From assembly GCA_022376515.1 (NCBI GenBank), contig WTXI01000070.1:105713-169712 (forward strand): a stretch of DNA of 64,000 bases, read 5' to 3'. The stretch is from Lactifluus volemus. Taxonomy: Eukaryota; Basidiomycota; Agaricomycetes; Russulales; Russulaceae. Of the stretch, positions 28,921 to 64,000 are shown piece by piece. Under the pieces are notes generated by a model. It had not been told where the DNA came from and ran no database searches. It worked only from the letters and a program-made list of their open reading frames with translations. Position 1 is the first letter of the stretch. Each line of letters starts with the position of its first letter. Made by a program: the position numbers and the translations under genes.

Positions 28921-28942
28921 TCTTGGCAAATGCTTTCACGCA

Positions 28943-30548
28943 CAGCCTTGGGTGTCCAGAAATCGTGCATGTGAAAAGTTATACTAAGTTGCTGTACGTC
29001 ATTACATTAGGGAAAAAGTATAAGTAAGCTATATGATCAATAAATCGAAGGGGCTCCCGCTCAAACATGACGGAACCGAATGCGTCAAGAACTGTATTGA
29101 CTGTTGTGCAAATACACAATGAAAACCTATCTGCCGTATCGGGAACGATGGCTGCGATGAATCAGTGACCTGAGTAGCGTCTTTTGTCTAGGAAGGAGAC
29201 GAAGCCGATTAAATTCTATGACAATGTTATGACTTATGAACAGCCTTTCCTGACTCAGATCCGGCGGGCGGAAATATCGTGTGAAAGGAACGCTGAAACT
29301 TGGTAGGGAGCTGGTTGGAGAGAGCTCCAGTCGCGCGCAACGAAATGGGAATTGAGGCTGAACCTGAGGGAAGAACAAAGCTATGGGGAACGCTACGACC
29401 GGAATTGCTGGCTCAATCATGTACAGCGGTGAAACCAATCGGGCAGACAGATGATCATCAACAACATACTTGGAGTATAAGCCTATACAAGTAAATCCAC
29501 CATATAGAGGTCATCTGCATCTCCCGTTCGGTGCCGTGCCAGTGGTGGCGAGAGATATATATGTTCACCAGTGTAGTAATCATCGCCGCGGATGCAAATG
29601 CCGAGGTCCGCCATGGATCATTTCATGTTGTTGTGAGGGTGTCGTCGTTGGAGGGCTGGGCGCTGCCCCGAGGATGTAGTGGTTAGGGATGAAACCGCGT
29701 TGTCCGTGCTTATCTCAGCGTCGGGTGTGTCCGGTACGCCTGTCATTCCGCCCCCGCTGTCCCTAATCCCTACTCCATCGTGGTCGACCAAGTAACCTAC
29801 GAGCGGCCATCGGACTGCGACCCTCTTCCAGACCGAGGGGTAGGCAACATGTATGGCCGTCGTCAGCTTAGGTACACCCACATTGTTCTTTGAGTGAGAA
29901 CCTCCTCTGGTGGCCTACAGTAATATGTGGGAGAAGGAGTCTGGGAAGCGGTGGCAGAACAGGGTTACACAGTAACACCCGTCTATGCAACGGTGGGGGT
30001 GAAAGTACTTTCCCCGCGCACGATCACGTTGCTCGTGTTTGAGCAGATGGGCCAGTCAAAGTGTTGCTGCGGGTGTTGTGGTCGACCCATCAAGTTATGC
30101 GCGCCCCATTTTGATCACATCGAACATCCAGCCGGGGCTCTGGAAGAAACCTTCTTCTACGCACTGGCTGTGCGACAGGTGCGGGGACGGGAGGGGCTGA
30201 CGCTACGGGTTGTTTTGTTGATATCGAGCTCAGAGGGCGCAAAAAATGGGCCATGATCTTACGGATAAGTAGCGATGCGATATGGTGGATGGCACCGTAA
30301 AGTACCACTACGAGAGGCAAGATATGCCTGAGCGCATGACGGCGCGGCCAGTTCCGACGGAACTCTGCAGCTGCCATGTAGGCTCTCAAATTTCAAATTC
30401 GAATTGTCAGCTACTTGCAGATGGAACTTTTTTTCTCGCTACCTTGAGATCATAGAACGTAGTGAGAAAGGAATCTTATTGTAACAAGAAACCTGTGCGG
30501 TGAGTAACATAAGGGGACTATACCAAGGACAGAAAAAAATAGACGAGT
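28943..30548. repeat. Long direct repeat, right copy (R2), upstream of gene C
   Basis: Matches R1 at 24854-26300. It begins only about 22 bases before the ATG of the minus-strand gene C, so it is that gene's 5' flank. Its other end, agacgagtt, runs straight into the dispersed repeat at 30548. It is about 150 bases longer than R1, partly from an insertion near 29680-29780. Confidence 0.8.
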
Positions 30549-30768
30549 TCATGTCATGCCTTATACGCTGTTAATGGGCTGCCACCAATGGGCGGTCGAT
30601 GAGTTGCTGAGGGAATATGTGGGTAGTTTACAGAGACCGGAAATTGAGAGTGTGTTCCAAAATCAACATGTCCTCTGCCGCACCTGGCCGTCAATTGGAA
30701 AGGGGAGAACGTATGGCGCTTGAAAGCATCAGAATGCCTGTGACTTGTGTGTGCAGACAGAGGCCACC
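30548..30768. repeat. Dispersed repeat, copy 2 (copy 1 at 17482-17693)
   Basis: Same sequence as 17482-17693, including ccaatgggcggtcgatgag and caacatgtcctctgccg. It directly adjoins R2 on the left and the truncated NACHT pseudogene on the right. Confidence 0.75.
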
Positions 30769-30774
30769 CATACC

Positions 30775-32630
30775 GGAACTGGTCTCACCTCGAAGTCAAA
30801 CGCCAGAAGGTCTGCTAGCTCTTCAACACGAAGCGGGCGGGAAGCCACTGCGACGAATTGGAAGAGACTGCGCATACTTCCAATGAATATCTCGTAAGGA
30901 GCGCTCATGTCTCTGCGAGGGTTTGGGGGAACTCATCCAGCACATGCCGGATACTTCTAGGGAGGTAGTAGCGGACCGCTTTGAGCTGGCAACCGGCCCA
31001 TCGGAACCTACATGACACGTGTGAGCGGACGCCATGTATTTTTATGGTACCAATGCTAACATTCCATTAGCCTTTAGCGAGAGCTTTCCAATGACTAGCC
31101 CCTTGTCTTCAACCCCATCTTTCAATTCCCGAGTCCGAGAAAATGACAGATTCGATGTGCTCGAAGGACGTTTTCCTTTGTTCTCGTTCATCGTGGAGGG
31201 AGACGTGATGGGAGTTCAATAGATTAAGGACAGCTTCGATGTCGGTATCGGGGCGAGCAGTGGCCCATATGCGTAGATTTGGAAGGTCCAATTTGACAAG
31301 TTCTTCCAAGAGCACTAGGACCCTTCTACGGGAATGACATGCCGTAGGCATTCGAACACTGGTTGAGAGCGTCTATAATACTGTAGGTTCGGGGGTGTCC
31401 AGCACGTAGGAACATATCCTTTAGACACTGCGTAAGTGCAGCGGCACTAGGAACTTGCAAGCCATCGCGGTGCTTCGAATAGAACTTGAAAATAATCTCG
31501 GAGTCGGAGTTGGACTGGCCGCAAAGCTGGAACAGAAGTGAGGACAACAAGCCCCGAGGACCCTCCCTTTGGTCGTCTGAAATCGCAATAAAAGAACGCC
31601 ATAGAGGCTGGTCCAGACTTGCGCATGTCGTCGAGAGCATCGATGATCGTCGAACTTGACAATGATATGAGTTCAATCGTAAGATACTAGGAAAGTAACG
31701 TACCAAAGTGTGGTCCTCCCAGCCCCGGCTAAGAAAAAAGAGGCTTTCAACTCAAATGTAGGGTTTAATAGTAAGGGGGACACGTTCGCCACAAATCCAC
31801 AAGAGAGAACCGGATGACTTCTATTCCGAGAATGTGTCGCCTCAGATGAACCATGTCGCGGTCCGGCAATGGTGAGCACCGCACGCGATGTTGTGGTTTT
31901 TCCACGGGTCTGACGGGCAGAGCCGACTTTGAAGGTCTCGCCGCATCTGGTCGTCACCTGTGAGACAGACACGAATTCAGCGACGAATCGAGGAGAAATT
32001 CCTCAACTGTTCCAAAAACTGCGGTGGAAGCCATTAAAGGTCTGTCCAATGACCCCCCAAGCCACGTCCTGGCTGAGTCTCTCTACCCTTCGCAGCAACA
32101 CCTCAACCTCAGAGTCATTTCTTCTTAAAAGCTTCTTTCCGATTGCCTCTGCGCCGCGTTGAATCTAAAAATGCCTTGATGAGAAAAATTCACTTAGTAG
32201 CCCTTGGTCATACTGCCTGGTCACAAGGGAAAGGGTGGAGAATAGCCCGACCAAGGTTTCCATGAATATCTCTATCACGCCTGGTGTAGGAGGGATCCTG
32301 GTATAACAATCAAGGCGTCGGAGGAAGCTTGCAATGGACTTAAACAGGTGGCCGAATGCTTCGAAGTTTGCGATACATGTCATTAATATGACAACGTATA
32401 TGGCTGAGCGATACTATGATCACCTTGCCGATGCGTAATCGAAATTCAAGCGCTACTCGTTAAAGAAACTCTAGGGCGTATTCGACAGACTCACATCTCA
32501 TCGGCTCATGTATGAGTCTATATCGAAGTCTTCCCTCGTCCTGCGTTCGTACTCTTTAAGGGAAGAATCAGGAAGTGGCTGAGGACGAGATGGCAGCGTA
32601 GAGCCAATATTATCCATATCAATACTCGAT
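30775..32630 (-). pseudogene. Broken NACHT STAND gene (D), lacking its ankyrin part
   Basis: The segment reads, 5' to 3' on the minus strand, like gene B and F: LPDSSLKEYERRTREDFDI (then a stop from a deletion near 32515), FLRRLDCYTRIPPTPGV..ETLVGLFSTLSLVTRQ, a linker, and LWICGE/PGAGRTTLW. The Walker A Lys is replaced by Arg (GAGRT). Then come AFFYCDF..REGPRGLLSSLLFQL, Walker B-like YSIIDALNQC with the acidic residue pair lost, a frameshift after NAYGMSFP (about 31345), and LNSHHVSLHDEREQRK. The sequence ends in a winged-helix remnant around LPRSIRHVLDEFPQT and is cut at about 30775, where repeat DNA begins. No ankyrin exons follow. With several independent lesions it is not functional as a NACHT protein. 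Confidence 0.8.
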
Positions 32631-32640
32631 AGTCGAGAGG

Positions 32641-34072
32641 GAGGTGTCAGTCGGCTCTTTCTAAGAGAGTTGAAGGGTAATAGCAGTAGATCTAGAGGGA
32701 GAAAGAAGGGGTATCATACATAACTAGCATCGACAAGTACCCGAACCAAGGACATGAAAGGACCTACCCTTGTACGCATGCATCTATACACCAATATGGA
32801 AACAGAAGCACATATCTCAGGCTTCGCAGACCCAACTTGAGGGTGCCAGTGATTGCCTTGCCATTTGGGACAGCAGACAAAGGAAATTGGAGACATCTGT
32901 ATTCCAGGGGTCCTCGACAATACCACTGGAGCCACTATTTATTGTCTTTGCTTGGGCTTGACGGGCTTCGAGTACTTCACAAACCCTCGCCATAAATGTA
33001 CTGGACCGATAACAAAATAAAAATAAAAATTAATGACTTTGGGAGTGCTTAAAGCTGAGACGGGTAAAGGAACATGTGGGTTGAGACGCTGTAGCTGGGC
33101 ACAAAGCGGACTTTACCCATTTGAGATTAGCCCGTCTCCATGCCACGCGTGACATCATGACTTTTCTCGCACGTGAACCGAAAGAGAACCCGGTACGCAC
33201 TGTCCAGTGTCCCCGCCTCTGTGACACCCTCTTTAAATGAATCATCGACTACCTCCAGCCTCTTCAATTGGCAGAGAAAGATGGCTATGAGAGCGCGGAT
33301 TCATTCTGTGCCTTGTCCTGAATCTAAACTAGCGCCTCTCCAGGTATGCACGCAAATTTTCTCTCATTGATCAGTGTTCATGACCATGTTCCTAGCAGTG
33401 GCATCTTTATTATCCTTATTATATGGGAAGACCACCGCGCTAAACAAACCAAGGAAGACTTCATCCTTAGCACAATTGCTTGCTACCGCTGTTTCTCGTC
33501 CGTGTGCCTGATGCAAGAACTCGACGGAGAAGATATGTTCTTTGGTACGTTCTGCACATGCTACTTTACGCTCTTGGATTGACATAGGATCATGCTGTCG
33601 ACAATTTCTACTGTCAGAGAAGGGCAAGCCTCGAAGGACCTTGGCCATAACTACCGATCTCAGGCTCACTTCACTAGTGTCCAATGACAGAGACTACAAA
33701 AGTATGTGGAGTGTCGCGGCTTAACTATCTCACTCCCGGCTCCCGTTACTGTTTACATTGACTACCCGTAAAATGAAGTGTATTTGAAAACATGCTATCC
33801 GATGAAGGAGGGAGAAATACGACTGCCCTAGCGCGCCCTTAGTTGCCTTAGCCCCACCATAGTTGCCCTAGATTTCACTCATGCCCCTCGTTTACTTTCT
33901 TCGCCTTCACCCTTGCCCGAAGTTACCTATATCTCAGGCCTGGCGGGTCATTAAGACATCGTGAAGGGGGTACCCCGAACGACTGGATGCTCCCGGGCTT
34001 TACTACTTGAAAGCCTCTGATATATATGTAGTGATCGACGGAGTGATTCTCATCCTTGAATAAAAAGAGGGA
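32641..34072. other. Non-coding mosaic inside segmental duplication copy 1
   Basis: No intact gene. 33040-33360 carries pieces of the upstream region and coding exon of gene X (57050-58015), for example ccttgtcctgaatctaaactagcgcctctccag. 33500-33700 matches the unknown-family fragment also found at 46740-46950 and 15424-15976. Both pieces are broken relative to those copies. Confidence 0.6.
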
Positions 34073-34840
34073 TCAGTACTTGTCAGGTTTACGTGCCACA
34101 AGACAACGGACTGGATTTGGAATACTGGTATGGTGCTTCACATGTTTACAGATTTTGTCCTCGACTCGCCATTTTAAATCCACCTGACCTTTGGGGAGTT
34201 CTTGGGAAGCCAGCTTTGCTCCGACATTTTTGTCCAAAAATACAGCTGCGGCCCACGAGGTTACCACACTATATCCTGTGACGAGAATGATGTCCTTTAT
34301 ATCGGTGTCGGGGAAATGATTCTTCGCAAAGTTCTTCGCAAAGTCAAAGAACTTCTTAGCATTTTGACCCAGGTATCCCTGGATCCTCGACGAAGCTGAC
34401 CCAATAAAATCTTCAAAGTAGGCTTCATTTGGAAGGTGCAATATTGCTCCGGGCTTCCCCTTGGACTCATAGACTCTCATACTAGGAGACGAATCAAGAA
34501 TGGGTATTGGAATATTGAAAGCCCGTATCACTTACCCGTCCTCCTGGGTCATCCTCACAGATTTTGAGTGATAGTCTCCGCTTTGCAACCATCTTTTTAT
34601 GAATAGAGCTGGCTCAATAGGGTAGTAATCCTCTGGTACACCATGACCATATTGTTTAGGGTCATCTCTTTTCAGCCGTATGTTGAACAGGCGAACGAAT
34701 CTGCCGTCGGATATGAAGCCAATATCGCCGACCGATACGTGATTGTTGGGATTTTCACGGTCTGGCTCCCATAACGCCCAGCCGTAAGGTTTGTACTTCG
34801 CCTTGAGTTCTTTCTGGTAAACCTCGTGTGGTGAGTGCAT
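34073..34840 (-). CDS. Conserved Agaricomycete protein of unknown function (gene E)
   Basis: Exons 34840-34536 and 34481-34073 join in frame (phase 2) to 237 residues. Exon 1 begins MHSPHEVYQKELKAKYKPYG and has GWALWEPDRE and the block VGDIGFISDGRFVRLFNI. Exon 2 has DIKDIILVTGYSVVTSWAAA and ends ARKPDKY. Proteins with this GDVGF..DG.F..LFN plus DI.LVTG......WA.A..F pattern are common and unannotated in mushroom genomes. No signal peptide, membrane segment or catalytic motif is seen. It is intact, like its copy E2 (47329-48110), although the NACHT gene beside each has decayed. That contrast suggests it is still under selection. Confidence 0.75.
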
Positions 34841-35419
34841 CAGACTTTGGGTACGTGAGAATTGGAGGGGTCTATGTCACCCAAAACACGTGTATTGTGT
34901 GACGGGAACAGCATTCTACGAGCGCTCATACTGGAGTAGGGTATCAGTCTGCGCACTTGTCATCGATAACGCCCAATGTACATCTAGGAGTCTCCACCCA
35001 CCTCACATAGACTTGCAAGCTTCAAGCCTTACGCCCTACGAGCCAAACTGACAGTAGCTAGGACTTCGATGTCTTTGAAAAAACCTTGCCGCTGGAAGAA
35101 TGTCCTCATACTAGATTACGTGATCTCAGACCACATGATCCCACACATCGGTGATCCCCCGATCATCTTTAGCGTCTGCTTTCTCTTTCGCATTTCTAGC
35201 TTGTATATACATGATTCAGCATAACTCTTCATGCTAGAATGTATCACAGATCTGTCCTGTGGTAGATAAAGGTCAGGCTAAGGCAGTCACAATTATGAGT
35301 CAATCCAACATAAGTTCTTTATGCTCATTTTCCTCTCGCTCCTCGTGCTTGTGAACCTACACACCGTCTTTTTAGCTTTCTCAATCTCCCGATTTCCGCC
35401 CAAACTCACCTGTGTACCC
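34841..35419. other. Spacer between gene E and the 3' end of gene F
   Basis: No gene seen. It matches 48135-48600 of the second duplication copy. Confidence 0.5.
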
Positions 35420-38400
35420 TCACGTCGCACGCAAAGTGGTATATTTAAGCAACAACTCCTCAAGTTCTGGATGTCCTCCCTGCGATGCCACGTGCAATGC
35501 ATTCCAGTTGTGGTTGTCCAGAGCATTTGCATCCGCATCGTGCTTAAGGAGGACCCGAACAACTTCCAGATCTCCTTCTTCCGCTGCTATGTGCAGTGGA
35601 GTCCAGCCGTTACCCTTGTCTCGGCAGTTCACATCTGCCTCTTTCTCGAGAAGGAAGCGAATGACATCTAGATGTCCTTCCCCTGACGCAAGGTGCAGAG
35701 GAGTCCGGTTATCATTGTCCTGGGAATTTACATCCCCACCATGCTTGATGAGCAGCCGAACTATATTCAAGCAACCCTCTTGCGAAGCTGAGTGCAATGG
35801 AGTCCGGGCGTCATCGTCCGATGCATTGACCTCGGCACCCTTGTCCAGAAGGAGCTGAGCAACTTCCAAATGCATACATGGAAACGCCCCATGAAGTGGA
35901 GCCTGAAGTCGTTCTTCTCGTGACACCAAATGCAATGGGGTCTGTTGGTTTTTGTCCTTGGAATTTACACCTGTTTCATCCTTGAGAAGGACCTGAACAA
36001 CTTCCAGACGTCCGTATCGTGACGCTAGGTGCAACGGGGTCTGATTTTCTTCATCTACGGTATTCTTGTCCGCGCCATACGTCAATAGGATCTGGACAGC
36101 TTCCTTGAGTCCTCCTTGTGACGCCCAATGCAAGGGACTCCGGTGACTCTCGTCGAAGCTATTGGGTTCCGCTTGATGCTCAAGAAGGACGCGAGCAACG
36201 TTAAAATGTCCTTCTTGCGACGCCAGATGCAACGGAGTGCAGCCATTATCGTCCCTGACATTAGTGTATGCGCCGCGGTCGAGAAGGACTTGAACAACAT
36301 CCGCATGCCCCTCTGCGGATGCTTTATACAACGCAGTCCAGTTATAGCTGTCCGTAGCGTTTATATCTGCGCCACGGTCGAGGAGAATTTCAGTAATCGC
36401 AAGACATCTGGAGAGCAAAGCCACATGCAAGGGGGGCCAGTTCCTGTTGTCCCGAGCATTGGCATCCGCATGACGTTCAAGAAGGAGCTGAGTAACTTTT
36501 AGCCGTCCTTCTTGTACAGCCCAATGCAGAGGAGTCATGCTATCATTGTCCCGGGCATCCACACCTACGCCACGGTCGAGAAGGAGCCTAGCAACCCTCG
36601 AATCTCCTTTTTGTGATGCCACGTGCAATGGGGGCTTGTCGCGTTCGCCCTCCTCCACAAGTTCGAGCACTTCTTCGCGTGAAGTTGGAATGCCAGAGAC
36701 ATTCGGACTTTCGTCCAACGCGTCTGTCATGGCGAATATCGGTCCCTGTCCAACATATGATGGAGTGTTATTATCGCTGTTCCGGAGTGAGTCTCTGCAC
36801 AAAAATTGAACACCCGTGCCAGTGAGAAACTTACGTGAGTAAATGAGTCCGAGTCTGCTTGTCTTCCTCCATATGTTTTCGCAATACCAAACGTAGTGGA
36901 GTATCGCCATTCTTGTCGCGGGCATTCTCATCTGCGCCATGACCCAGGAGGAGCCAAGCCACTTGCGCATGTCCTCCTTTCAACGCTAAATGTAGTGGAG
37001 TGTCACCATTCTTTTCGCGGGGATTTAGATCCACGCCGCGATCCAGAAGGAGCCTCGCAACTTCCAGATGACCCCTTGCCGATGCCAAATGTAGTGCTGT
37101 GATGTCATTCTTGTTGCGAGCATTCTGATCTGTGCCGCGATCCAGAAGGAACCGAGCAACTTCCAGATGACCTCCGATCGATGCCAAATGCAGTGGGGCG
37201 TTGCCATCTTTGTTGCGGGAACTGTCATCCGTGCCGCGATCCAGAAGGAGCCGAGGAACCTCCGGAAGACCTCTTCTAGATGCGAAATGTAGTGGAGTGT
37301 CCCCATTGTTATCGCAAGCATTCTGATCTGCACCACAATCCAGTAGAAGTCGAGCAACTTCTGGATGTCCTCCTCCCGACGCCAAATGTAGTGGGGTGTG
37401 GTCATTCTTGTCACAGGCGTTGACATCTGCGCCGCGATCTAGAAGAAGCTGGACAATTTCCAGGTGTCCGTACTGCGAAGCCAGATGCAATGGGGACACG
37501 TGATTGTTACCCAGGGCATTCGCATCTGCGCCACGATCGAGAAGAAGTCGAGCACCATCTAGGTATCCAAATCCCGATGCAAAGTGTAATGGCATCCAGT
37601 TGTATGTGTCTTGTGAATTTACATTTGCACCACACTCAATAAGGAATTTAGCAAGATCTGAATGCTCCTTTTCCTTCAAGACCGACCTAAAAGGATTTAT
37701 AGCATTACCTAAACTGAAATCAAGAATAACATAAAGCATACCCAGGTTCTTCAAACACCAGGTGTAAGGCAGTCTGGGCATTCTCATCTCGGCAATCCTG
37801 ATTTGCACCATGAAGAAGAAGAAGCTGGACAATTTCCAGGTGTCCATATTGCGAAGCCAGATGGAATGGGGTCACGCTATTGTTATCCAAGGCATTCACA
37901 TCTGCGCCATGATCGAGAAGAAGTCGAGCAGTGTCTAGGTATCCAAATTTCGATGCAAGGTGCAATGGCGTCCAGTTATTCATGTCTTGTGAATTTGTAT
38001 TTGCACCGCGCTCAATAAGGACTTTAGCGAGATTTGGGCGCTCTTCTTTCTCCAAAGTAGATGATGACCTAAAGGATTTATAGCATTACCTAAACTGAAA
38101 TCGAGAATACCATAAAGCGTACGTAGGATCTTCGAATACCAGGTGTAAGGCAGTTTGTGCATTGCTATCCAGGGCATTTGCATCTGCACCATGATCAAGA
38201 AGGAGCTGAGCAACTTTCAGGTATCCGCTTTTTGATGCAAGGTGTAGCGGCATCTGGTTGTTCTTGTCATGCACACTAGCATCTGCGCCGTACTCAAGAA
38301 GAGCCCTGGCTACTTCCCAATGATTACAGACCGACACAGAATGTAGTGGTGTCGATCCTGTGTCGTCTTGAGAGTTCAAATCCGCACCATGGGAAACAAG

Positions 38401-41322
38401 GATCTGAACAACTTCCAGGTGTCCTCGTTGTGACGCTAAATTTAGTGGAATGCAGGAGCTGTTGTCACGTGGATTTGTATCGGCCCCGTGCTGGAGAAGA
38501 AATCGCGTAATCGTCCCATTGCCCATTTCAGAAGCTATAGATAATGGAGTGTGGTGGTTAGACTGCCGAGCGTTTACGTTTTGTGCACGTTGGACAATGA
38601 GGAACTCTGCGATGTCACGTAGGCCGTAGAGTGCCGCGAGATGCAATGGGAGTTCTATTTCCTGGAATGGGTACAAATTAAGATTTTTCCAGGCCCCAAA
38701 GTGTCGGGTTGTTGGGTCAAAAAAACGTTTCATGCCTTCTTGTACTGTCACTGACACGTTTTCAAACAGGGCATGGTCCACCCAGTGTACCGCTGCATAC
38801 TCGGCAAGAGGGAGCTTCTTGAGGCTATCATTGGTGACCTTTTCATCTAGGTGCAACAGGGTGTCGAAGCAGGCTTTCGCAACCATGGTGTGAGCAGGTG
38901 TGGTAAGAATGTTGTAACGGCGGATGGTAGGCATTTGCGCAGCTGCGAGGCGGCCCGAAATTAAGAACTCTTTCACTGAAAAATGCGAGAACTGAACCAG
39001 TTTCGAATGCGTAGGGCCAAACCAGTGACGTATCTGGTAATCGCGATTCTCTTGGTCATCGCTATTTTCCTGGTCCTCTTCATATTCCCGGTCATCGCTA
39101 TATCCCTGGACAACGGTGATCAGACTAGAGCACGTGGATAGCACAGCCTGCATTAGGTCTTTCCGGTGGTGATCCTCGACAAGCTTGGGAATTTGTCCGA
39201 CCTCGAAGTCGAAAGCCAGAAACTCCGCAAGCTCTTCAACATAAAACGGACGGGACGCCACCGCCATACACTGGAACAGCCGGTGGGCATAGTCCCAGAT
39301 CTCCTCATCAATATCTTGCAAGGAACGCTCATACGTTCCATCGAGGGTGACCGGCAATTTTTCCAGAGCAAGCCGAATACGCCCCGGAGGGCAGCGGCGA
39401 AGAGATTCGAATTGACATGAGACCCATTTGAACCTGCATGACATGTGTGAGTCACAGTGCAGTTTTGTAGCACCTATGCCTTACATTCTATCGCCCTTTT
39501 GTGAAAGTGTTCTGGTGACTAGTGTCTTCTCCTCCTCTCCCCATGTTCCCATGACGAGGTCCGAGTTAACGACAGATCTGATGTATGCTTCGATGTCTTC
39601 CCTCTGTCCCTCCTCTTCGTGGAGGGAAATAAAATGGGACTTCGAGCGATTCAGGACATTTTGGATGTCGGTTTCAGGGCGAGAAGTGACGAATATATGT
39701 AGCTTTGGAAGATTTAAACCGACAAGCTCCTCCACAAGCTTCAGGACCTTTCCCCGGGGAGATGGTGTGCCATAGGCTTTCGGCCATTCGTCAAGAGCGT
39801 CCACAATAATGTAAATTGGGGGATGTGCAGCACATAGAAAAATATCATTTAGGCATCTGGCAAGTGCGGCGTCACTGGGTTCTTGAGACCCATTACGGTG
39901 ATCCGAATATAACTTTGAAAGGATCTCGGAGTAGGACTGGGACTGGTCATGAAGCTGGAACAGAAGCGAGGATAACAAGCCCCGCAAATTATTCTTTTCG
40001 TCGTCTCCGAATTCGCAATAGAAGAATGCTAGCGAGGCCGATCCAGACCTGCGCATGCCATCGATGTATTCAATAATCGACGAGCTTGTTGATGATATCA
40101 GTTTCCACCGGAAAATACCGGAAATGTTGCGTACCAGAGGACGGTCTTTCCAGCGCCAGCTACGATAACAGAACCATCAATCTCGGTGCGTGTTGTAACA
40201 GCAAGGGACACTGACGTTTACCACAAACCCATAAAAGGGAGCCAGACGACTGCCAGTTGACGAAAGTATCACTTTGAGTGAACCATGTCGTGGTCCCGTC
40301 GTGGCGAGCTGCACACGCCATGTTATGGTTCTTCCATGGGTTTGACGGGGAGAGCCAGTTTTGAAGATGTTGCCGCAATTGGTCAGCTGTAAAAGGATCT
40401 CGGTGTTCTTGGTCAGAAATGACGAGATTATGTGGATAACAGACCCCTCGAAATTTGCTCAATTCGGGAGACAACTCCTAGCGTCTGCGCTGTAGTTGCT
40501 CGCACCTCCTCCTGGGTAAGCCTATCCCTCTTTTCATAGTCCATGATCACTCTCGAATTGTCCTCAAGACGGGAGACAACTTCGACCATCTGCGCTGCAA
40601 TCGCCTGCACCTCCTCCTGGATAAGCTTATCCAGCTTCTTTAGTGCCGAAACGACCTTATTCTCTCCGAGCAGCTTCAACCAGAAATTCTCTGCATCATG
40701 GTCAGCCATGTGGCCTATGGGCAAAAATCCACTCACTCAGTCGTCCTTGCTTTATCTGTTTGGTAGCCAGAGCGAGGGTAGACAACATTTCGACTATAAT
40801 CTTCACAGCAACCTCCCTTACTTTCATTGTTGGAGAAGCTTGAGTATAAAGATCATAGCTGGCATTGACATCCTTCACGGCCTGGGTCACGAGAACACGC
40901 GCTGAGGAACTGAAGAGACATACAGGTGAAATGGACTGCAGAATATGCATCATGACATGAACGGAAACTATCCGCACATTCAGACGCACCACTGAAGCAA
41001 CACCATGTCCAGATTGAATAGCTCCTTCAGGTCCTCTCAGGGCAGTACCCGAGCCAGTGAAAACCATATGCAGAACTTGAACCGTACGCAATATGGACTT
41101 CATCATCTTGGGGTGAAGGTCATTTCCCAAGGATTTACGAAAAGCCTGTACTTGTTCTTCGAGAACTTCATTAACGGATTCGATAGTGTCGCACGATCTG
41201 AGTCGGATGGCAAGTTGATGTTCGACGAGACTTGCCCTGACCTTCGTTTGGTACTGCTTAACGGCATCGCCCAAAACAGACTGCAAAGCAGACGAGTCAG
41301 AAATATCAGTTGTAGAAGACAT
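35420..41322 (-). CDS. NACHT-ankyrin STAND protein (gene F) with Goodbye-like N-terminus
   Basis: ATG is at 41322. The first exon is the clearest Goodbye-type domain in the window: LQSVLGDAVKQYQTKVRASL, LRSCDTIESVNEVLEEQVQAF, and DVNASYDLYTQASPTMKVRE. Coiled linker LIQEEVQAIAAQMVEVVSRLE follows (about 40680-40440). Walker A is split by an intron into LLWVCGK and PGAGKTVL (near 40165); Walker B is PPIYIIVDALDEW (about 39800). Winged-helix MFKWVSCQFESLRRCPPG begins the exon at about 39430. About 30 ankyrin repeats are spread over exons ending near 38120, 37745, at 36835, and the last at 36794-35420. The last exon contains a stray Walker-B-like piece (FAMTDALDESPNVSG) before its ankyrins. All ankyrin-exon borders are phase 2. 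It appears intact. Confidence 0.83.
36905..37395 (-). repeat. Ankyrin tract nearly identical to 20453-20925 in gene B
   Basis: Five ankyrin repeats here and in gene B share almost every base, including silent positions, while flanking repeats differ. See the matching entry in gene B. Confidence 0.8.
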
Positions 41323-43089
41323 ATGGTTGAGAAAAGAGAAACTAGTCGAGTCTGAGTATATGAAAATGGGGGTGGATGTTACCGTGGTTCACGGTGAGTG
41401 AGGGCAGCCTCGTGTTTGATATCGATAGTAATACTAGTAGTCAACTGCCAATCAGATTTTAAGGAAGGCGCAAGTAACTTTCCCAAGTGGGTACTATACA
41501 AGACCGGCATGATACGGAAACAACGTTAGCCGGTCGATAGTTCAAAGTAGGTATCCGAGTCTGGCTATCTATCCAATCATCACTCGGTAGCTCTGCAGTT
41601 TGACAAGTCATTCCTGTGTCAATATCCACTACGCCCGGCGCCACAACCTTTCCCAATGGCCTTCATGTCCAGTAACTTTTACGCCCAACTAGTCAACAAG
41701 ATCAATCCGTGCGAGAACTAGGCCCAGCCACCCAGAATCGGTTATCGGTATTGAGCTCATTATCATCCACCTGCCCACCCCTCGCTAAAGGCAGTCTCCC
41801 CGAGCCCGCTAGAACAACGATATCGCTGTCCTCTAGCTATCGGCATGAATGAGCATCCCCGCTCTCCCGCCATGAATCGTGATGGACGTACAACCTCTAT
41901 GATCGACTAACAAAATCTCAACAAGCATTTCTACGTGCCAACAAGCATGTGACGCCCTTCCTGGCCCGTCATGACGCCGAGTCCTCAGCCACTGTGCGGA
42001 CCGCATAGAATAAACCCGAGGCTTTTTCTTCACATGGTCCGTGGACTCTTCCTCGGGAGTCGCGTGTACCGGGTCTCAATGGGCCACAAAAAACATATTC
42101 AGACAGCAGTACGTTTATGCCACGTCAGAGTCTTCGATCTCTGGGATGACACGCTTGTTGCAAGACAGGTGCCAAACAAGGTCAAAGTCGTGCAGGCCGA
42201 TCGGTCAAGGAGATGGTCGTTGAGGAGACGCGGCTTGCTGTAGACGTGGGGTAGGGGCACGATAGAAGGTCGAAACCTAGTACGAGGTTTTGACAAGGAG
42301 AACACCGAGAGTTGACTGCTGATAGAAAAAACATTGTGAACAAAGACTGTCTCATTTTTGCCGCTGTGAGCGGACCTCCAAGTCATCACAATTTGATTCG
42401 GGCCAACTGCGTCCAAATGTACAGATAACCTTTGTCAGAGAACAAATGCCAGTGAGTGGCACGGTCGGTGTATTCTCTCTAAAAGCGATACAGCGACTGA
42501 GTAAGATAACAAAGAAGGAATAATACCAATCTATGCTGTCTCTGCATTGCCGTTCCGACGTTCACAAATAGGGTTATATGCATCTCTGCAATAAACTCCA
42601 GCAAAGGTTAATGCCCCCAGATCGGGGTCAACAAGGATGGCGAGTTGTTCGAATGCTTCTGTATGAAGGTTTGAGCCAGTTCAGTAGAGTTTGAAGACTA
42701 CAGCTGCGTACCTATTTCTGGTCCTCAACTTCACCCTGATCACCACACCCTCCATTTATATGTCCTCACTGTGTGTACACCACTCTTCTCATGCACGGCA
42801 GCAGTCAGCCGTCAACGAGGTCACCAACAGGGTTCCACGTTCAGAACCTCGGTGCCGCGCCAGGCCAGAGACGATGGTCAGTAGGTGGGCAGCCAATGAG
42901 GGAGTCGAGTGCAAAAAGCGAGAGACCAGTGTGCGTTGGCAAGGACTTATGATGTATAACGGAGCCTAAACCAATGTCGATTGGGAACAAGCGAGTTCTA
43001 TGGTTACGATGCTTACCTAGAATGACCTTGTTGTAGAGCCTGGCAGGGAAATGGGAAACCGCATAGGCTAGGGTGGACGCCATACATCG
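41323..43089. other. Intergenic, no gene seen
   Basis: About 1.7 kb upstream of gene F. Short frames only, and no repeat recognised elsewhere in the window. It should contain the promoter of gene F near its left end. Confidence 0.45.
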
Positions 43090-48804: not shown

Positions 48805-51800
48805 TTAACCTTGTCTCGGCAGTTCCGATCGAAGGAAGCGAATGACATCTATATGTCCTTCCCCTGACGCAAGGTGCAGAGGAGTCCGGTTATCATTGTC
48901 CTGGGAATTTACATCCCCACCATGCTCGATGAGCATCTGAACCATATTTAAGCAACCCCCTTGGGAAGCTATGTGCAAGGGAGTCTGATTGTCATCGTCC
49001 TGGGCATTGACATCGGCACCCTGGTTCAGAAGGAGCTGAGCAACTTCCAAATGCCTAAATGGAAACGCTCCATGAAGTGGAGTCTGTAGACGTTCTTCTC
49101 GTGACACCAAATGCAGTGGTGTCTGCTGGTTTTTGTCCTTGGCATTCACACTTGCTCCATACTCGAGAAGGACCTGAACAACTTCCTGACGTCCGTATTG
49201 TGACGCTAGGTGCAACGGGGTCTGCTTTTCTTCATCCATGGTATTTATGTCCGCGCCATACTTCAATAGGACCTGGACGGCTTCCCTGAGTCCTCCTTGC
49301 GACGCCAAATGCAAGGGACTCCGGTGACTCTCGTCGAAGCTATTGGGATCCACTTGATGCTCAAGAAGGATGCGAGCAACATTAGCATGTCCTTCTTCCG
49401 ACGCCAAATGCAACGGAGTGCAGTCGTTATCGTCCATGGGATTAGTGTATGCGCCGCGGTGGAGGAGGACCTGAACAATATCTGCATGCCCCTCTGCGGA
49501 TGCTTTATGCAACGCAGTCCAGTTATAGCTGTCTGTAGCATTTATATCTGCGCTACGGTCGAGGAGAATTTCAGCAATCGTAAGACGTCCGGAGTGCAAA
49601 GCCACATGCAAGGGGGGCCAGTTTCTGTTTTCCCGAGCGTTGACATCCGCATGACATTCAAGAAGGAGCTGAGTAACTTTTAGCTGTCCTTCTTGTACAG
49701 CCCAATGCAGAGGAGTCATGCTATCGTTGTTCCGAGCATCCACATCTGCGCCACGATCGAGAAGGAGCCGAGCAATCCTCGAATCTCCTTTTTGTGATGC
49801 CACGTGCAATAGGGTCTTGTCTCTTTCGTCCTGTGCATGTCCATCAGTGACGTAGTCTGGAAGGATCTCAGAAACTCGGAAAAATTCTCGTGGCGGCTTC
49901 GAAAATGATGGAGTGTTATTATCGCTGCTCCGGAGTGAGTCACACATAGATTGAACATCATGTGCCAGTGAGAAACTTACGTGTGTAAAAGAGTCCGAGT
50001 CTGCTTGTCCTCCTCCGCATGTTTTCCCGATGCCAGATGTAGTGGAGTATCGCCATTCTTGTTGCGGGAATTCGCATCCGCATCGTGCTCAAGGAGGACC
50101 CGAACAACTTCCAGATCTCCTTCTTCCGCTGCTATGTGCAATGGAGTCCAGCCGTTAACCTTGTCTCGGCAGTTCACATCTGCCCCGTTCCCGAGAAGGA
50201 AGCGAATGACATCTATATGTCCTTCCCCTGACGCAAGGTGCAGAGGAGTCCGGTTATAATTGTCCTGGGAATTTACATCCCCACCATGCTCGACGAGCAC
50301 CCGAACTATGTTCAAGCAACCCCCTTGGGAAGCTGAGTGCAAGGAAGTATGATTGTTATAGTCCCGGGCATTGACATCGGGACCCTGGTTCAGAAGGAGC
50401 TGAGCAACTTCCAAATGCCTAAATGGAAACGCTCCATGAAGTGGAGTCTGTAGACGTTCTTCTCGTGACACCAAATGCAGTGGTGTCTGCTGGTTTTTGT
50501 CCTTGGCATTCACACTTGCTCCATACTCGAGAAGGACCTGAACAACTTCCAGACGTCCGTATTGTGACGCTAGGTGCAACGGGGTCTGCTTTTCTTCATC
50601 TATGGTATTCTTGTCCGCGCCATACCTCAATAGGACCTGGACGGCTTCCTTGAGTCCTCCTTGCGACGCCAAATGCAAGGGACTCCGGTGACTCTCGTCG
50701 AAGCTATTGGGATCCGCTTGATGCTCAAGAAGGACGCGAGCAACATTAGCATGTCCTTCTTCCGACGCCAAATGCAACGGAGTGCAGTCGTTATCGTCCC
50801 TGGGATTAGTGTATGCGCCGCGGTCGAGGAGGACTCGAACAACATCCACATGGCCCTCTGCGGATGCCTTATGCAACGCAGTCCAATTATAGCCGTCCGC
50901 AGCATTTATATCTGCGCCACAGTCGAGGAGGATTTTAGCAATCGCAAGACGTCCGGAGTGCAAAGCCACATGCAAGGGGGGCCAGTTCCTACTGTCCCGG
51001 GCATTGGGATCCGCAAGACGATTAAGAAGGAGCTGAGTAACATTTAGCTGTCCTTCTTGTACAGCCCAATGTAGAGGAGTCATGTTATCATTGTCCCGGG
51101 CATCCACATCTGCGCCACAATCGAGAAAGAGCAGAGCAATCCTCGAATCTCCTTTTTGTGATGCCACGTGCAATAGGGTCTTGTTGCTTTCGTCCTGTGC
51201 ATGTGCATCTGTGACGTAATCGGGAGGGATCTCAGCCACTTGGAAACTTTCGCGTTGCGACTTCGAAAATGATGGAGTGTTATTATCGCTATTCCGGAGT
51301 GAGTCTCTGCACATAGATTGAACATTACGTGCCAATGAGAAACTTACGTGTGTAAAAGAGTCCGAGTCTGCTGGTCTTCCTCCGTATGCAAATGTAGTGG
51401 AGTAGCGACATATACCGTGGCCCAGTTCAAGCCGTGCACGAACCTCGAGAGTTCAAGCCGGGTCCTATGTTCTCCTGCAACCCAGAGAGTACTAGGTCTA
51501 TAAATGAACGGCCGTTGAAGCAGAGGGATCCACATCAAAAGTTCTCCGTCTCTCCCACATATCCAACCATCGCTGTTAATCAGGAATTGGTCCGTAAAAT
51601 TGACTCGGGCGTTGCCATCCAAAGAGGCTGAGACAGTGTGTTTATCGCCTGGCGAGAATGCAACGCCTCCTGTTGCAGCATCCCACATGCGAATCGTGTG
51701 ATCCCCCGAAGCCGATACGATGTGCTTCCCGTCAGGCGAAAATGCAACGGAGTTGACTGAATCAGTGTGTCCGGTAAACGGGCCTGCTACGGCCGCCCCT

Positions 51801-54800
51801 ATTTCAGAATCCCACAAGCGAACCGTGCGATCGTTTGAGGCCGATGTGATGCACTTCCCGTCTGGCGAAAATGCAACAGACAACACCGCATCAGTGTGTC
51901 CAGTAAACGGGCCCACCACAACCTCTCCTGTTATGGCGTCCCATACTCGAATCGTGCGGTCCTCCGAGGCCGACGCGATGCGCTTCCCGTCTGGTGAAAA
52001 TGCAGCAGAGCGGAGCGGGGCAGTGTGTCCAGTAAACGGGCCCACCACAACCTCTCCTGTTATGGCGTCCCATACTCGAATCGTGCGGTCCTCCGAGGCC
52101 GACGCAATGCGTTTCCCGTCTGGCGAGAATGCAACAGAAAAGACCATATCAGTGTGTCCAATAAATGGGCCCACTACAACCTCTCCCGTTATGGCATCCC
52201 ATACACGAACCGTGCGATCTTCCGAGGCCGACGCGATGCGTTGTCCGTCCGGCGAGAATACAACACAGAAGATAGTATTGGTATGTCCGGTAAATGGGCC
52301 CGCTGTAATATTTCCTGTTGCAGTATCCCACAGGCGAATCGTGCGATCTCGCGAAGCCGATGCGACCCGCTGCCCTTCAGGCGAGAAAGCAACAGAAATG
52401 ACCCAATCGGTGTGACCAGTAAACGGGCCTGCTGCGACCTCTCCTGTTGTGGCATCCCACACACAAACTGTGCAATCTGCAGAGGCCGAGGCTATCCGTT
52501 GCCCATCCGGTGAGATTGCAACAGAAAAGATGAATTGGGTATGTCCAGTAAATGAACCCCTTCCCTCTCCTTTTTTGGCATCCCACACGCGAACCGTGTG
52601 ATCGTACGAACCCGAGGCAATGCGCTGCCCGTCCGGCGAGAGTGCAATACAAGATATCGGCCCGGTATGTCCAGTAAATGGGCCTGCTACGATCTTCCCT
52701 GTTGCGGAATCCCATACGCAAACCGTGCAATCGATTGAGGCTGAGGCGATGCGTTGCCCGCCCGGCGAGAATGCAATAGAGTAGATAGGACCGGTGTGTC
52801 CAGTAAATGGGCCTGCTACGGCCTGTCCTGTTGCAGAATCCCACACATGAATCGTACGATCATGTGAGGCCGAAGCGATGCGCATCCCGTCCGTGGAGAA
52901 TACAACACATTTAACGCCTTCAGTGTGTCCTGTAAACGGGCCCGCTACGACCTCTCCGGTTGCAGCATCCCACATGCGAATTGTGCCATCTTCAGAGGAA
53001 GAAGCGATACGTTGCCCGTCTATTGAGAATGTAACACAGTTCACTCGGTCAATGTGTCCAATAAACGGGCCTGCTACGACCTCTCCAGTTGCGGCATTCC
53101 AAACATGGATCGTCTGATCGTCTGAGGCAGAGGCGATGTATGTCCCGTTCGGTGAGAATGCCACGCATCTGACCACACCCGTGTGTCCAGTAAATGGTCC
53201 CGCTACGACCTCTCTTGTTGCAGCATTCCACACGCAAATCGTGCAGTCCTCCGAGGCCGAGGCAATGCGTTTCCCGTCAGGCGAGAATGCGACAGAGTAG
53301 ATGGAACCAGTATGTCCGGTAAACGGGCCCGCTACAATTTCCCCTGTTGTGGCATCCCACACGCAAATCGTGCGATCTCGCGAGGCTGATGCGATCCGTT
53401 GGCCATCTGGCGAGAATACAACAGACTCGACTGGTCCGTCGTGTGCTTTAATCGTCATTTCCAATGCTGGCCAATCAGACAACTGTCCGCGTTCCAAAAA
53501 CAATGTGCGGGGGAATTGGTGAAGATGGCACTCGACGATGCGGGAAGAGGATGGTGCGAAAGGGAGAGCAGATATATATATATGCGGGACACTTCTTGAT
53601 ATCGCCATCCCGAAATACCGCACGAAAGCGGACGCATCATCCACAAAGGCGAACAGATTCTCAACCTCTGATTGGAACAATCGCTGCAGTTGTACCCAAG
53701 AGTTACTACATGAGGTATAACATGATAAGAGCCACCTACCTTCCGCTGATCAGACCGCAACCACGTGTTCAGAGATCCCAATGCTTGTGATGCAAGACCG
53801 ACCCTGTTCTTGATGCTGAGCACTTCCAGCCAAAAAAGGAATCTTGTCTCGAACAGCAATCGAAGTTTTGTTAAGAGGTCCAGTTCGATACCAAGGCGTT
53901 CTAAATGATCGCCCCAGAAAACGCACGCATAAGATAGAGCAGGTGGAATGTATTTGGCAATTCGAGATTCGAGATCTGGCACATCCCTGTTGGCAAGGTA
54001 TGACGATTCGAGTTTGCAAATGTTGAACTTGAGATTATTGAGCATTAATCCAAGACTGGAATGTGCCAACCGACGGTGAGACTTGTCAAGGTCGATGTGA
54101 AATACCCCACTCTTCTCATTGGCTAGGAAGTCACGAAATGAGGAGTGGAGAGGAACGATCGGGAGGGTATCGTCGGATGAGGTCACGTTACTGAGCAGTG
54201 AGCCAAGGTGACGGAGCATTTCAACAACGCATTCCGAATCCTCGGGGTCAGGGTCCTCGGGGTCACCCTTGGGTGCATGTCGTCGCAGCGCAGTCAAAGA
54301 GCGGATGGAAAGCGGAGCGAGAGCAGCAAAAAGCTGTCCCATGACGGAACGAAATAGAGTCTGTGCTGCAACCGGTTTGAAGTACCCTTCCAGAACTTCT
54401 CCATATAGCTGGTCCAAAGGATCTTGCCCATCGCGACCTCGAGAGTGCCCCAACAGACGCTCTATCACTTGTTTCTTGCTAAACCCAAAGCTAGGAGGAG
54501 GATTGTTTATTAGCCCGGAAGAAACGGCTGCCCACTGAAACAATCCTTCCGCTGCTTTTGCAAGTTCGACACCATGTCGTTCGAACAGCTTGAAAGGGAG
54601 TTCGTTCTGGAGATATAAGCAAATATCTTGCTCCGTTTTTGCAGCCAGTTTGTGATCGTCCATAAAGAGGGTGTGTACGGACAACGCATTACAGAACGCA
54701 AGTTCCATACCGTTCTCCGGCCTCGAGGTGATGAGGATGCGAAAGTTCGATGGCAACTCGAAGAGATGTTCAGCAAGAAATTTGTGTAATCCGTGTTGGC

Positions 54801-55448
54801 CAATTACGTCACCGCTCTCATCCAACGCATCGATCACAATAAGGATTGGACCCCCAAGCTGAAGGTTCTTGACTGATTCAAGGAGGAGGCGTTCAAAAAG
54901 CGTGCGATAGTGTCGAGTACTACAGAGAGATGGATCATTCTTGAGCACCCTCCCGAGGGCGAGTTTGAACGGAGGATAGCGATTGGAGAGATCGCGAGCA
55001 AGCGTCGTGAAGAGCTGGTGAGCCTCATCTTTGGAACCCTCTTTCCGCAAAAAAGTGAAGTCGGTGCAGAGATACTTATTCTTGAAGAGACGTGCAACCT
55101 CATGTGCGATTGAAGACTTTCCTGTGCCTGCTTGGCCGAGGAGGACGAGCCCACGTTGAGATTCAGGATGACGGACCCACTTGACGATATGATCCAAGAA
55201 ATCTTCGCGTGTGCCTGGAAGACAGCGCCTTTCATAGCCAAATTGCCAGCCTCCTTGATAAGGCAATTCGCTAATTTTTGTTTCCAGATCTTTATACCTT
55301 CATCAGATCGACGACTCGACGATCCAGACCATCAGAATTGCGCACCAAACTCCAGAGTACCCCCTATGGGGGATGGAGGACCGGTATCTGCGGTGGGTTG
55401 CATGGTTGGGTTCGGGGTGTTGACTGCCGCTGTTGGGAAGGAACTCAT
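48805..55448 (-). CDS. Chimeric NACHT-WD40-ankyrin STAND protein (gene H)
   Basis: Exons 55448-55361, 55289-53740, 53683-51348, 51306-49981 and about 49927-48805 keep the frame to about 2140 residues. The start ATG gives MSSFPTAAVNTPNP; compared with the paralogue at 1-2040, the helical N-terminal exons are missing and the short leader splices straight to DLETKISELPYQGGW. NACHT: RCLPGTRED, Walker A GQAGTGKSS, Walker B GPILIVIDALDESGD. The typical linker SSYLANRDVPDLESRI precedes 14 WD40 repeats. The usual C-terminal block RFVHGLNWATVY is followed without a stop by ATPLHLHTEEDQQTRTLLHT, an ankyrin-exon tail, and the next two exons encode about 25 ankyrin repeats. A 14-base net deletion (near 48832) ends the frame early. 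Splicing across the WD40-ankyrin junction is inferred from matching intron phase and sequence. Confidence 0.75.
49981..51306 (-). repeat. Tandem ankyrin exon cassette in gene H
   Basis: This exon and the next (about 49927-48805) are near copies of each other and of the terminal exon of gene F. The flanking introns begin gtaagtttctca and are 40-55 bases long. Exon length 1326 is a multiple of three with phase 2 at both ends. Its last 20 codons (NSRNKNGDTPLHLAS..EEDKQTRTLLHT) match the end of gene F's penultimate exon rather than its last one, so the cassette is itself a hybrid. Confidence 0.75.
51646..53470 (-). repeat. WD40 repeat array, 14 full units plus one truncated
   Basis: Units of about 42-43 codons follow GHTx4SVAFSPDGxRIASAS.DRTIRVWD, with the joint AGPFTGHT between units. 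The three units around 51930-52200 are almost identical base for base with a 126-base period. A fifteenth unit at the 3' end is shortened to GVAFSPGDKHTVSASLDG. Fourteen units fit two seven-bladed propellers. Confidence 0.88.
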
Positions 55449-57231
55449 ATTCGCTGACACGGCGACCGATAGGGATAGTTTGACCGGCTCAGTTGGATGT
55501 TTATGCCCGCCAGCGCGGCTGAAAACAATATCAAATTCTACAAGTAGGATGCTCAGCCAGATAAGTCAATAAGAATTCGAAGAAATAGACGGACCGCGTC
55601 GGGTTTCGCAGGCTATCTCCTCCTTTCCAACAAGGATGTCTTTCTGATTTGTCTTTTCTTCATAAAGGGATATTGTAATACGGGCGAGTGGCGGTACAGC
55701 ACTGGAGGGAGGAGACTCAGTTGAACATAGGAGAAAAAAAGAGAAAATCCTACAATTCACCAATGAGCTCGTTCCATTCCACCCATCGTGCCACTGTCCG
55801 CACAGATCGTGTCCGCCATGATGTCTCCCAGTAAGTCACAGTAACGTAAAACTGTCTTTCTTTCCCAAGGAGGGTCTTGAGACGGGGAAGGTTGTGAGCT
55901 TGAAGGACTGGCAGGAGTCACTTGGTACTTATCAGTGAAGGGTAATGAACATACATACCAGTCACCTGGACCATGTGCGAGGTCGGTTGCGCTTCATTGA
56001 CCTGAGTACTACTAATGCGCTCCATTCCAGAGTGTTGAGGATCTGAGCTGTGGCAATGGTTAAGAGTGAGGAGAACCGAAGGGGAATAAATTTGGCATAC
56101 TACTGCGAGAAAATACGGGTGTATTGGTAGCTACAGAACTGTAGATTAAAATGCAAGGATGAAGGGTCAAGAGATTGCGAATCGGCGTACTTGCATTGAA
56201 GATATGCTTCCGCAGTTTGCCGGGAAGACACAACAAAGCACAACACAGTCGGGGTTGAAACGTTGAAAGTTGAAACACCGCAAACGGGGTGATTAGGCTT
56301 CCCCCCCTGCGTAGGATTCCGTGGGTCGTGCATAACGCTGATGTCCATCTTTACGCCCCCGAGCTATACGATGGAAGAAAGTCCTGTATTTGCATCCAGT
56401 TCTGCAAGTGACGAGTACTTTGCGTACTGAGTTCTCAATGAAGGTGCTATTTTTGGAGATTTGCTATCAGCTCCGCCTAACTTTCAGTAGGCACGAGTTG
56501 GGCGAACATCGAGGCGTACTTACAGATACCTGAGAATTAACTCCTGTACAATAAATCAACTGATACATCCCGCGCCTATATCTTCTTCGCAGCGGCAATG
56601 CGACATAGTCACCAATGTTCTCTCCATTCCTTCCCGCTCTTGAGATTCCCCATCGCCAGCTACTCAACCAAGTATGCCATCCTACAAAGCCTCCATAGTC
56701 CATGCGAAGGAAACCACGTCCGCCAATGTCTTTGTGATGGTGCCTTACTCGCGCAGAAACGGAGAATGAATAAACTCGCCGTGGAACGGCAATGTGAACA
56801 TTTTCAACCCTTGTCTCTGGATCTTGACGCATTTCGTGTACGTTCGGGGTGCTTTCCAAATCCTCGACGGACGTACTCGACCAATCTAGGTGGAGAATAC
56901 AATTGGTAATTTTGAGCGGGCGCAAGGCCGAGATGCATGAAAACAATAACACTGAGAAAAATATACTGCAGTGCCTCAAAGAGAGATATCTGGACGGATG
57001 ACGACGCCATGACCTGGTGAGATCCGCAAAGTGGCAACGCGCCCAACTGAAGCGGACTTTACCCGTTTGAGTTTGTCCCGTTCTCCATGCCGAACCACGA
57101 GGTGTCCGAAAGCAAACGCGTGACATCATGATTATCAAATCAAGACGCGTCTGTTGACCGTTGATTGATAGAGCAGAAGTGCACGTGAACTGAATGGGAC
57201 TCCGTCTCTCCGTCCTCAACCAGTTCCATCC
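55449..57231. other. Intergenic between gene H and gene X
   Basis: 55500-56070 is the upstream block shared with 2041-2640. 56385-56915 is the source or copy of the repeat at 43800-44212, and 57050-57210 recurs in broken form at 33040-33250 and 46160-46350. No gene is recognised; it must hold the divergent promoters of H and X. Confidence 0.55.
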
Positions 57232-63830: not shown

Positions 63831-64000
63831 TTCCTCGGGCGTACCACGGTCCAATACTGCTTTATATATCCTATTCTCCACCAAGTCACCAACACACACA
63901 ACGTCAGCATGTCAAAAACTATGCATTTTAATGAGAATTAAAGGATTAATTCGTACGAATGTCGTTCTTCCCTTTCGTGATTTGAAGCGTGTGCGCGTGC

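Follow-up and report, generated by a model that had tools for sequence, protein, structure and literature searches.

The locus described here raises the question of whether a NACHT-WD40 gene of Lactifluus volemus has been joined to ankyrin exons to give a single gene with two kinds of repeat array, and, if so, how the joining occurred. The window, by which we mean the whole 64,000-nt stretch of DNA that was analysed, forms the end of contig C597 (the contig end is window base 64000) in a genome of 62.4 Mb and 628 contigs. An initial annotation had placed a WD40-to-ankyrin junction within 51340..51430, in a gene on the minus strand designated gene H. We modelled gene H as eight exons with an uninterrupted frame of 2283 aa, or 2277 aa if the first ankyrin intron uses its downstream acceptor; exon boundaries were chosen by us from the sequence and from relatives, without a gene predictor, and all seven introns were GT-AG (Table 1). 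Pfam gave the order C2, NPHP3_N/NACHT, 14 WD40, and then Ank stretches in groups of 11 and 9. As 22 ankyrin motif anchors were present, two of them only 13 residues past the previous one, we count 20 to 22 ankyrin repeats. The P-loop GQAGTGKS in exon 5 was intact and LIVIDALDE was present, both of which we take to be NACHT NTPase motifs. Exon 4 had lost, in frame, a helical region that is retained in contig C50, probably the other haplotype of the locus; a Pfam search with this region, as it occurs in C50 and in the Lactarius hatsudake homologue P0126, gave no match up to E 5. The terminus of exon 8 (48805-48830) carried a frameshift, common to C50, which removes the C-terminal end retained by gene F, another gene in the window. 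Among five single-sequence AlphaFold2 models of exon 7 (mean pLDDT 81.7, 73.0, 49.7, 48.2, and 35.4), only one or two were good; the best was a regular helix-pair solenoid with disordered ends, which in the full protein would make up a linker. The corresponding model of the WD40 exon (mean pLDDT 36.8) was unusable and was discarded. We infer that gene H would be read as a single spliced mRNA.

Table 1. Coordinates of gene H and related features in the window
Feature	Position	Strand	Remarks
Exons 1-4, C2-type domain	55346..56025	minus	start codon 56025; Pfam C2 E=7.5e-6
Exon 5, NACHT/NPHP3_N NTPase	53740..55289	minus	Pfam NPHP3_N E=3.8e-21, NACHT E=9.7e-8
Exon 6, 14 WD40 repeats (43-aa register), family C-terminal block and ankyrin-derived tail	51348..53683	minus	
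Fusion breakpoint (exact position uncertain)	51404..51410	minus	WD40 block end at 51410, continuous ankyrin match from 51404 (from alignment and codons)
WD40/ankyrin intron, phase 2	51289..51347	minus	59 nt, or 41 nt with the alternative in-frame acceptor at 51307
Exon 7, ankyrin block 1, 11 Pfam Ank stretches	49981..51306	minus	start is 51288 with downstream acceptor
Exon 8, ankyrin block 2, 9 Pfam Ank stretches	48805..49924	minus	near-duplicate of block 1; stop TAA 48807-48805
Gene F, 3' ankyrin exons	35420..36979	minus	kind of source for the gene H ankyrin part

At the junction, the WD40 family C-terminal block (...RFVHGLNWATVY) terminated at 51410, and past it the gene H frame continued as V-ATPLHLHTEEDQQTRTLLHT, with no stop, up to a phase-2 donor at 51348^51347. 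The initial annotation had read the same tail but omitted one V, a residue that a relative on contig C67 has too (VYVHSSSK). We aligned this region with four ankyrin-exon ends of our choosing, two in the window and two in C50, using for the part after the switch at most 135 columns that ran from the tail through the intron into the beginning of the following exon. After the switch, gene H was identical to the four ends at 101/110, 101/112, 98/110, and 105/113 positions (89-93%); before it, at 14-16 of 44 positions (32-36%). The four sibling ends were alike on both sides of the switch (34/44 or 44/44 on the left), whereas gene H was like them only after it, and this pattern identifies a true breakpoint. 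The junction is therefore confirmed as real in the assembled sequence and lies within the interval first proposed for it, and the claimed match of its tail and donor to the ends of ankyrin exons held for all four ends aligned. The initial annotation had put the switch at about 51404-51405; the ankyrin match does run from 51404, but the precise position is uncertain and probably falls anywhere between about 51404 and 51410.

Gene F and the second ankyrin exon of gene H have the same donor, in the same phase 2, as the tail, and the downstream ankyrin exons stayed in frame, as had been claimed. For the intron after the WD40 exon there were two in-frame acceptors, 51306 (41 nt), which was the one originally chosen, and 51288 (59 nt), which is the site retained in the siblings; the upstream acceptor was gone from the second ankyrin exon. 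In the second ankyrin intron, the acceptor first assigned, 49927, kept the frame, but 49924 (56 nt), which also leaves it intact, was better placed. The gene H tail, in addition, carried a private 12-nt in-frame deletion, and these 12 nt were present in all four siblings.

All 16 relatives that we inspected (L014-L028, close matches from a DNA search with the WD40 end, plus a C50 paralogue) had a stop 1-10 codons past the block, and the C67 paralogue and the Lactifluus volemus protein P0121 also ended at the breakpoint position. When the genome was searched with the block plus the tail, gene H alone among the 150 matches scored (of 642 candidates) covered all 85 residues, which excludes chance, and the next longest match extended to residue 79, through a stop. 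The stops of the relatives together with this single full match indicate that the junction replaced the last few codons and stop of a complete NACHT-WD40 gene. Thus the proposal that a NACHT-WD40 gene was fused to a 3' part of the gene F type stood: the NACHT-WD40 coding region is complete, the join is in frame, and intron and phase were carried over. By eye, none of the other scored blocks had a same-strand ankyrin match within 5 kb 3' of it among the matches listed (150 scored of 642 block candidates, 150 scored of 1861 ankyrin candidates, the latter listed in part). On contig C223, one block had a listed ankyrin match on the other strand, at a distance of about 2 kb. A search of other organisms with junction residues 1380-1500 gave 43 candidates, none with E <= 0.001, a weak null since known relatives of the block (P0121) were missed as well.

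A junction of this kind might be produced by a chimeric assembly or read that misjoined WD40 and ankyrin parts at ~51404, and C50 indeed does not have the junction. NLR repeats are hard to assemble, and long reads recover WD40 alleles that Illumina assemblies do not (excerpted text of PMC12222747). Nevertheless, we regard such a chimera as improbable. No long repeat is common to both sides of the join, the fused stretch is 89-93% identical to its siblings and has a deletion of its own, and the join preserves the frame and falls at the family stop. In DNA searches that skip very common words, neither the WD40 end nor the NACHT exon had a near-identical second copy that could have been its true continuation; the next best matches were 77% (40 scored of 195 candidates) and 89% (40 scored of 626 candidates), respectively. 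Contigs of up to 1.9 Mb and separate haplotigs also suggest that long reads were used.

The WD40 part of gene H displayed the variability of its family. Its 14 repeats had a mean pairwise amino acid identity of 62% (range 44-86%), and the most variable repeat positions were 12, 14, 30, and 11. Diversifying positions of Podospora HNWD repeats are 10, 11, 12, 14, 30, 32, and 39 (excerpted text of PMC12222747). With the register matched by us to that of HNWD, these seven positions had a mean entropy of 2.12 in gene H compared with 0.99 over all 43 (permutation p 5.5e-5, 200,000 random sets). The C67 paralogue gave the same pattern, 2.16 versus 0.99, showing that the variability is a family trait that gene H has retained. 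In a comparison of 25 sequences, C67 was nearest for the gene H NACHT (89%), the C50 paralogue (83%) and C67 (82%) for the WD40 array, and a different group (76-77%, L014 and others) for the C-terminal block. As these parts are nearest to different groups, gene H is a patchwork, probably from at least three sources. Exon 5 had at least 39 other matches in the genome at 86-89% DNA identity (40 scored of 626 candidates). The C-terminal block (51410-51659), nearer to a different paralogue group than the NACHT and the WD40 array are, marks a second mosaic point, with an alignment gap just before it.

Contig C50 (1-50005) was collinear with window 6713-64000 except at window 28870-33370 and in the gene H region. 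In 1-kb bins, identity was 0.89-0.96 across gene F and 0.86-0.94 in the 5' and middle parts of gene H; elsewhere it was mostly 0.96-0.999, with a few lower bins (0.89 at 8 kb, 0.94 at 16 kb). Two low-identity islands between the contigs could thus be delimited, at 33000-42000 (gene F) and 50000-56500 (gene H), with 0.86-0.96 per kb. An ankyrin-rich stretch at about 18-28 kb formed no island and was 97-99.9% identical, and hypervariability is therefore not general to ankyrin genes here. We conclude that C50 is probably the other haplotype of the locus. It might instead be a paralogous segment, in which case the comparison would be uninformative on alleles, and the assembly is only partly duplicated: for the RPB1 family, one gene occurred on both C1 and C9 and two further places on C556 were single. 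This mixture of copies on two contigs and on one is, however, what a partly phased dikaryon is expected to give, and the collinearity apart from two structural differences, with most 1-kb bins away from genes F and H at 96-99.9% identity, makes a paralogous origin quite unlikely. As to the first of these structural differences, window 28870-33370 was absent at the syntenic place in C50, and its reading frames were all short, some of them resembling NLRs on visual inspection; window 31156-33066 matched C50 33515-35444 (88%), which is syntenic with window ~44.2-46.2 kb.

The C50 gene at this locus (38093-42031) encoded C2, the helical region, and ankyrin in one open frame to a near-end stop, without NACHT or WD40, its pre-NACHT linker running straight into the first ankyrin exon without a change of frame (GTRD-VTAQDES). 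The same C2 exons therefore stand 5' of the same ankyrin array in C50 and in the window, the helical exons being in C50 only, and the last ankyrin exon is frameshifted in both, with an extra stop slightly earlier in C50. The unfused state that the initial annotation had hoped to see at the orthologous locus was not found in C50, which has a different in-frame rearrangement. The start, intron, and tail that belong to the ankyrin exon itself are retained in the window and all absent from C50, which suggests that C50 is a deletion derivative in this part of the locus. C50, the probable other haplotype, has probably lost the switch and one of the two sensors, so that recombination of receptor parts can be seen at this locus.

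The C50 gene also bears on whether gene H is one gene or two. If the WD40 transcript ended before or near 51404, as the uniform stops of the relatives just past the block might suggest, the ankyrin exons could be a separate downstream gene, with ATG codons inside these exons as putative starts. We consider this arrangement very unlikely: gene H has no in-frame stop past the block, the ankyrin donor, intron, and phase follow directly, and C50 has this ankyrin exon in one frame with the C2 exons, an argument for transcription of the array from this promoter.

Gene F encodes a NACHT-type domain and ankyrin repeats; none of the four reading frames tested gave a WD40 match. Values of dS were 0.073 between ankyrin blocks 1 and 2 of gene H and 0.156 between gene H exon 7 and gene F; between the window and C50 they were 0.087 for the first and 0.026 for the second ankyrin exons. 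In ten comparisons among five copies, dN/dS of the ankyrin part ranged from 0.65 to 1.06, suggesting selection that is weak, diversifying, or mixed; constraint is not demonstrated by these ratios. Such values, together with the missing helical region, the frameshifted last ankyrin exon in both haplotypes, and the extra stop and missing NACHT of C50, would also be expected of a decaying gene, that is, a recombination product weakly or not transcribed and without function as a two-sensor receptor. We judge decay to be rather unlikely, given the 2283 open codons, the seven GT-AG introns, the retained P-loop, the retained pattern of WD40 surface variability, and long open frames in both haplotypes in spite of different in-frame rearrangements.

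The fusion had also been described as caught soon after birth, and this we could not uphold. The fused stretch differed by 7-11% from four siblings, compared with about 2.5% between allelic sibling ends, and a recent birth is unsupported by such divergence, of which the parts from before and after the fusion are inseparable. With the private 12-nt deletion also taken into account, the fusion is not demonstrably young. The window and C50 share both the placement of this ankyrin array 3' of the C2 exons and the frameshift in its last exon.

Our preferred reading, which we hold to be likely though well short of certain, is that gene H is one fungal NLR gene that arose by ectopic recombination in a tandem NLR cluster. 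A complete C2-(helical)-NACHT-WD40 gene would have been cut just before its stop and fused with the terminal part of an ankyrin exon of the gene F type, thereby acquiring the phase-2 donor of that exon together with the ankyrin exon downstream, of which there is also a second copy in tandem. The protein predicted from this comprises C2, NACHT, 14 WD40 repeats (enough for two seven-bladed propellers), a linker of ~50-70 aa, and 20-22 ankyrin repeats. The C50 haplotype would have lost NACHT and WD40 by in-frame deletion, presumably later or independently. In STAND receptors, the repeats keep NACHT off and binding of a ligand frees it. Gene H would most likely work, by analogy, like other STAND receptors: as a nonself sensor, it could respond to a ligand on either array by releasing the NACHT ATPase to oligomerise, and with two arrays it could bind two ligands or present a larger surface. 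Its C2 end may target the protein to a membrane, and since gene H lacks the helical region found between C2 and NACHT in relatives, its output may be weakened or partner-dependent. A more elaborate scheme, which we regard as highly improbable, is that a dikaryon carries complementary halves at one locus, C2-NACHT-WD40-ankyrin in one nucleus and C2-helical-ankyrin in the other, forming a split two-input receptor active only in the shared cytoplasm; gene H would then be a switch with two sensors lacking the helical executor candidate, and C50 the executor candidate with one sensor lacking the switch. On our preferred reading of a single fused NLR gene, gene H, if transcribed, would be a natural system in which to test whether a single NACHT switch can work for two sensor arrays, and the C50 form, if transcribed, one in which to test how an NLR behaves without its switch. 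The molecular step itself is visible in the breakpoint at the stop codon, the borrowed splice donor, and two probable haplotypes with different sets of modules.

Fungal NLRs have NACHT with ANK, WD, or TPR repeats, in architectures reinvented by recurrent fusion, and C2 occurs in a few basidiomycota (Dyrka et al. 2014; excerpted text of PMC4986451). They have been tallied by one repeat class each, ANK, WD40, TPR, or HEAT (PMC4986451, PMC12258605, and PMC12222747, in excerpt). We found no description of a NACHT-WD40-ankyrin protein in the literature searched, which included the excerpted text of these three papers, and do not claim its absence from print. Among 240 homologues (the best 120 of 7957 and the best 120 of 7949), none combined WD40 and ankyrin in one protein, a sample in which rare doubles may be missed. 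Profiles made from the gene H repeats detected ankyrin in 120/120 and WD40 in 0/120 of the best 120 in the ankyrin set, and WD40 in 120/120 and ankyrin in 0/120 of the best 120 in the WD40 set. Single-sequence phmmer was rejected for finding double proteins, being poor on distant domains; it gave NACHT in 0/120 of the ankyrin set, though Pfam shows a NACHT-type domain in some. Gene H has the NACHT with P-loop and the C-terminal superstructure-forming repeats of a fungal NLR (STAND) protein. Its repeats are neither WD40 only nor ankyrin only, and as the single-repeat feature of the NACHT-WD40 and NACHT-ankyrin classes is therefore lacking, we file it outside both, as a fungal NLR of unusual architecture. 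The internal repeat identity of more than ~80% of HNWD-like proteins is lacking as well; variation at the diversifying positions is present.

Comparison with known systems shows what gene H shares with each and where it departs from them. The NACHT-WD40 NLRs P0121 of Lactifluus volemus (61%) and P0126 of Lactarius hatsudake (60%) have NACHT followed by WD40, as does gene H; P0121 has the same C-terminal block, and several listed NACHT-WD40 homologues have C2 before NACHT. P0121, like the 16 inspected relatives, ends after its block, whereas gene H runs on into its ankyrin repeats; the helical region seen in C50 and P0126 is missing from gene H. P0126 (3443 aa) has a long, unrelated C-terminal extension past its WD40 array, from either a fusion or a gene-model merger. 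The NACHT-ankyrin NLR of gene F has the ankyrin exons, intron, and phase of the type from which those of gene H would derive, but its ankyrin repeats come after the NACHT-type domain, where gene H has a WD40 exon in between. Finally, the HNWD genes of Podospora (het-d/het-e/het-r) vary at the same WD40 repeat positions as gene H, with repeats more than 80% identical as against the lower mean of gene H, and the excerpted text of PMC12222747 mentions for them neither a C2 nor an ankyrin part, both of which gene H has.
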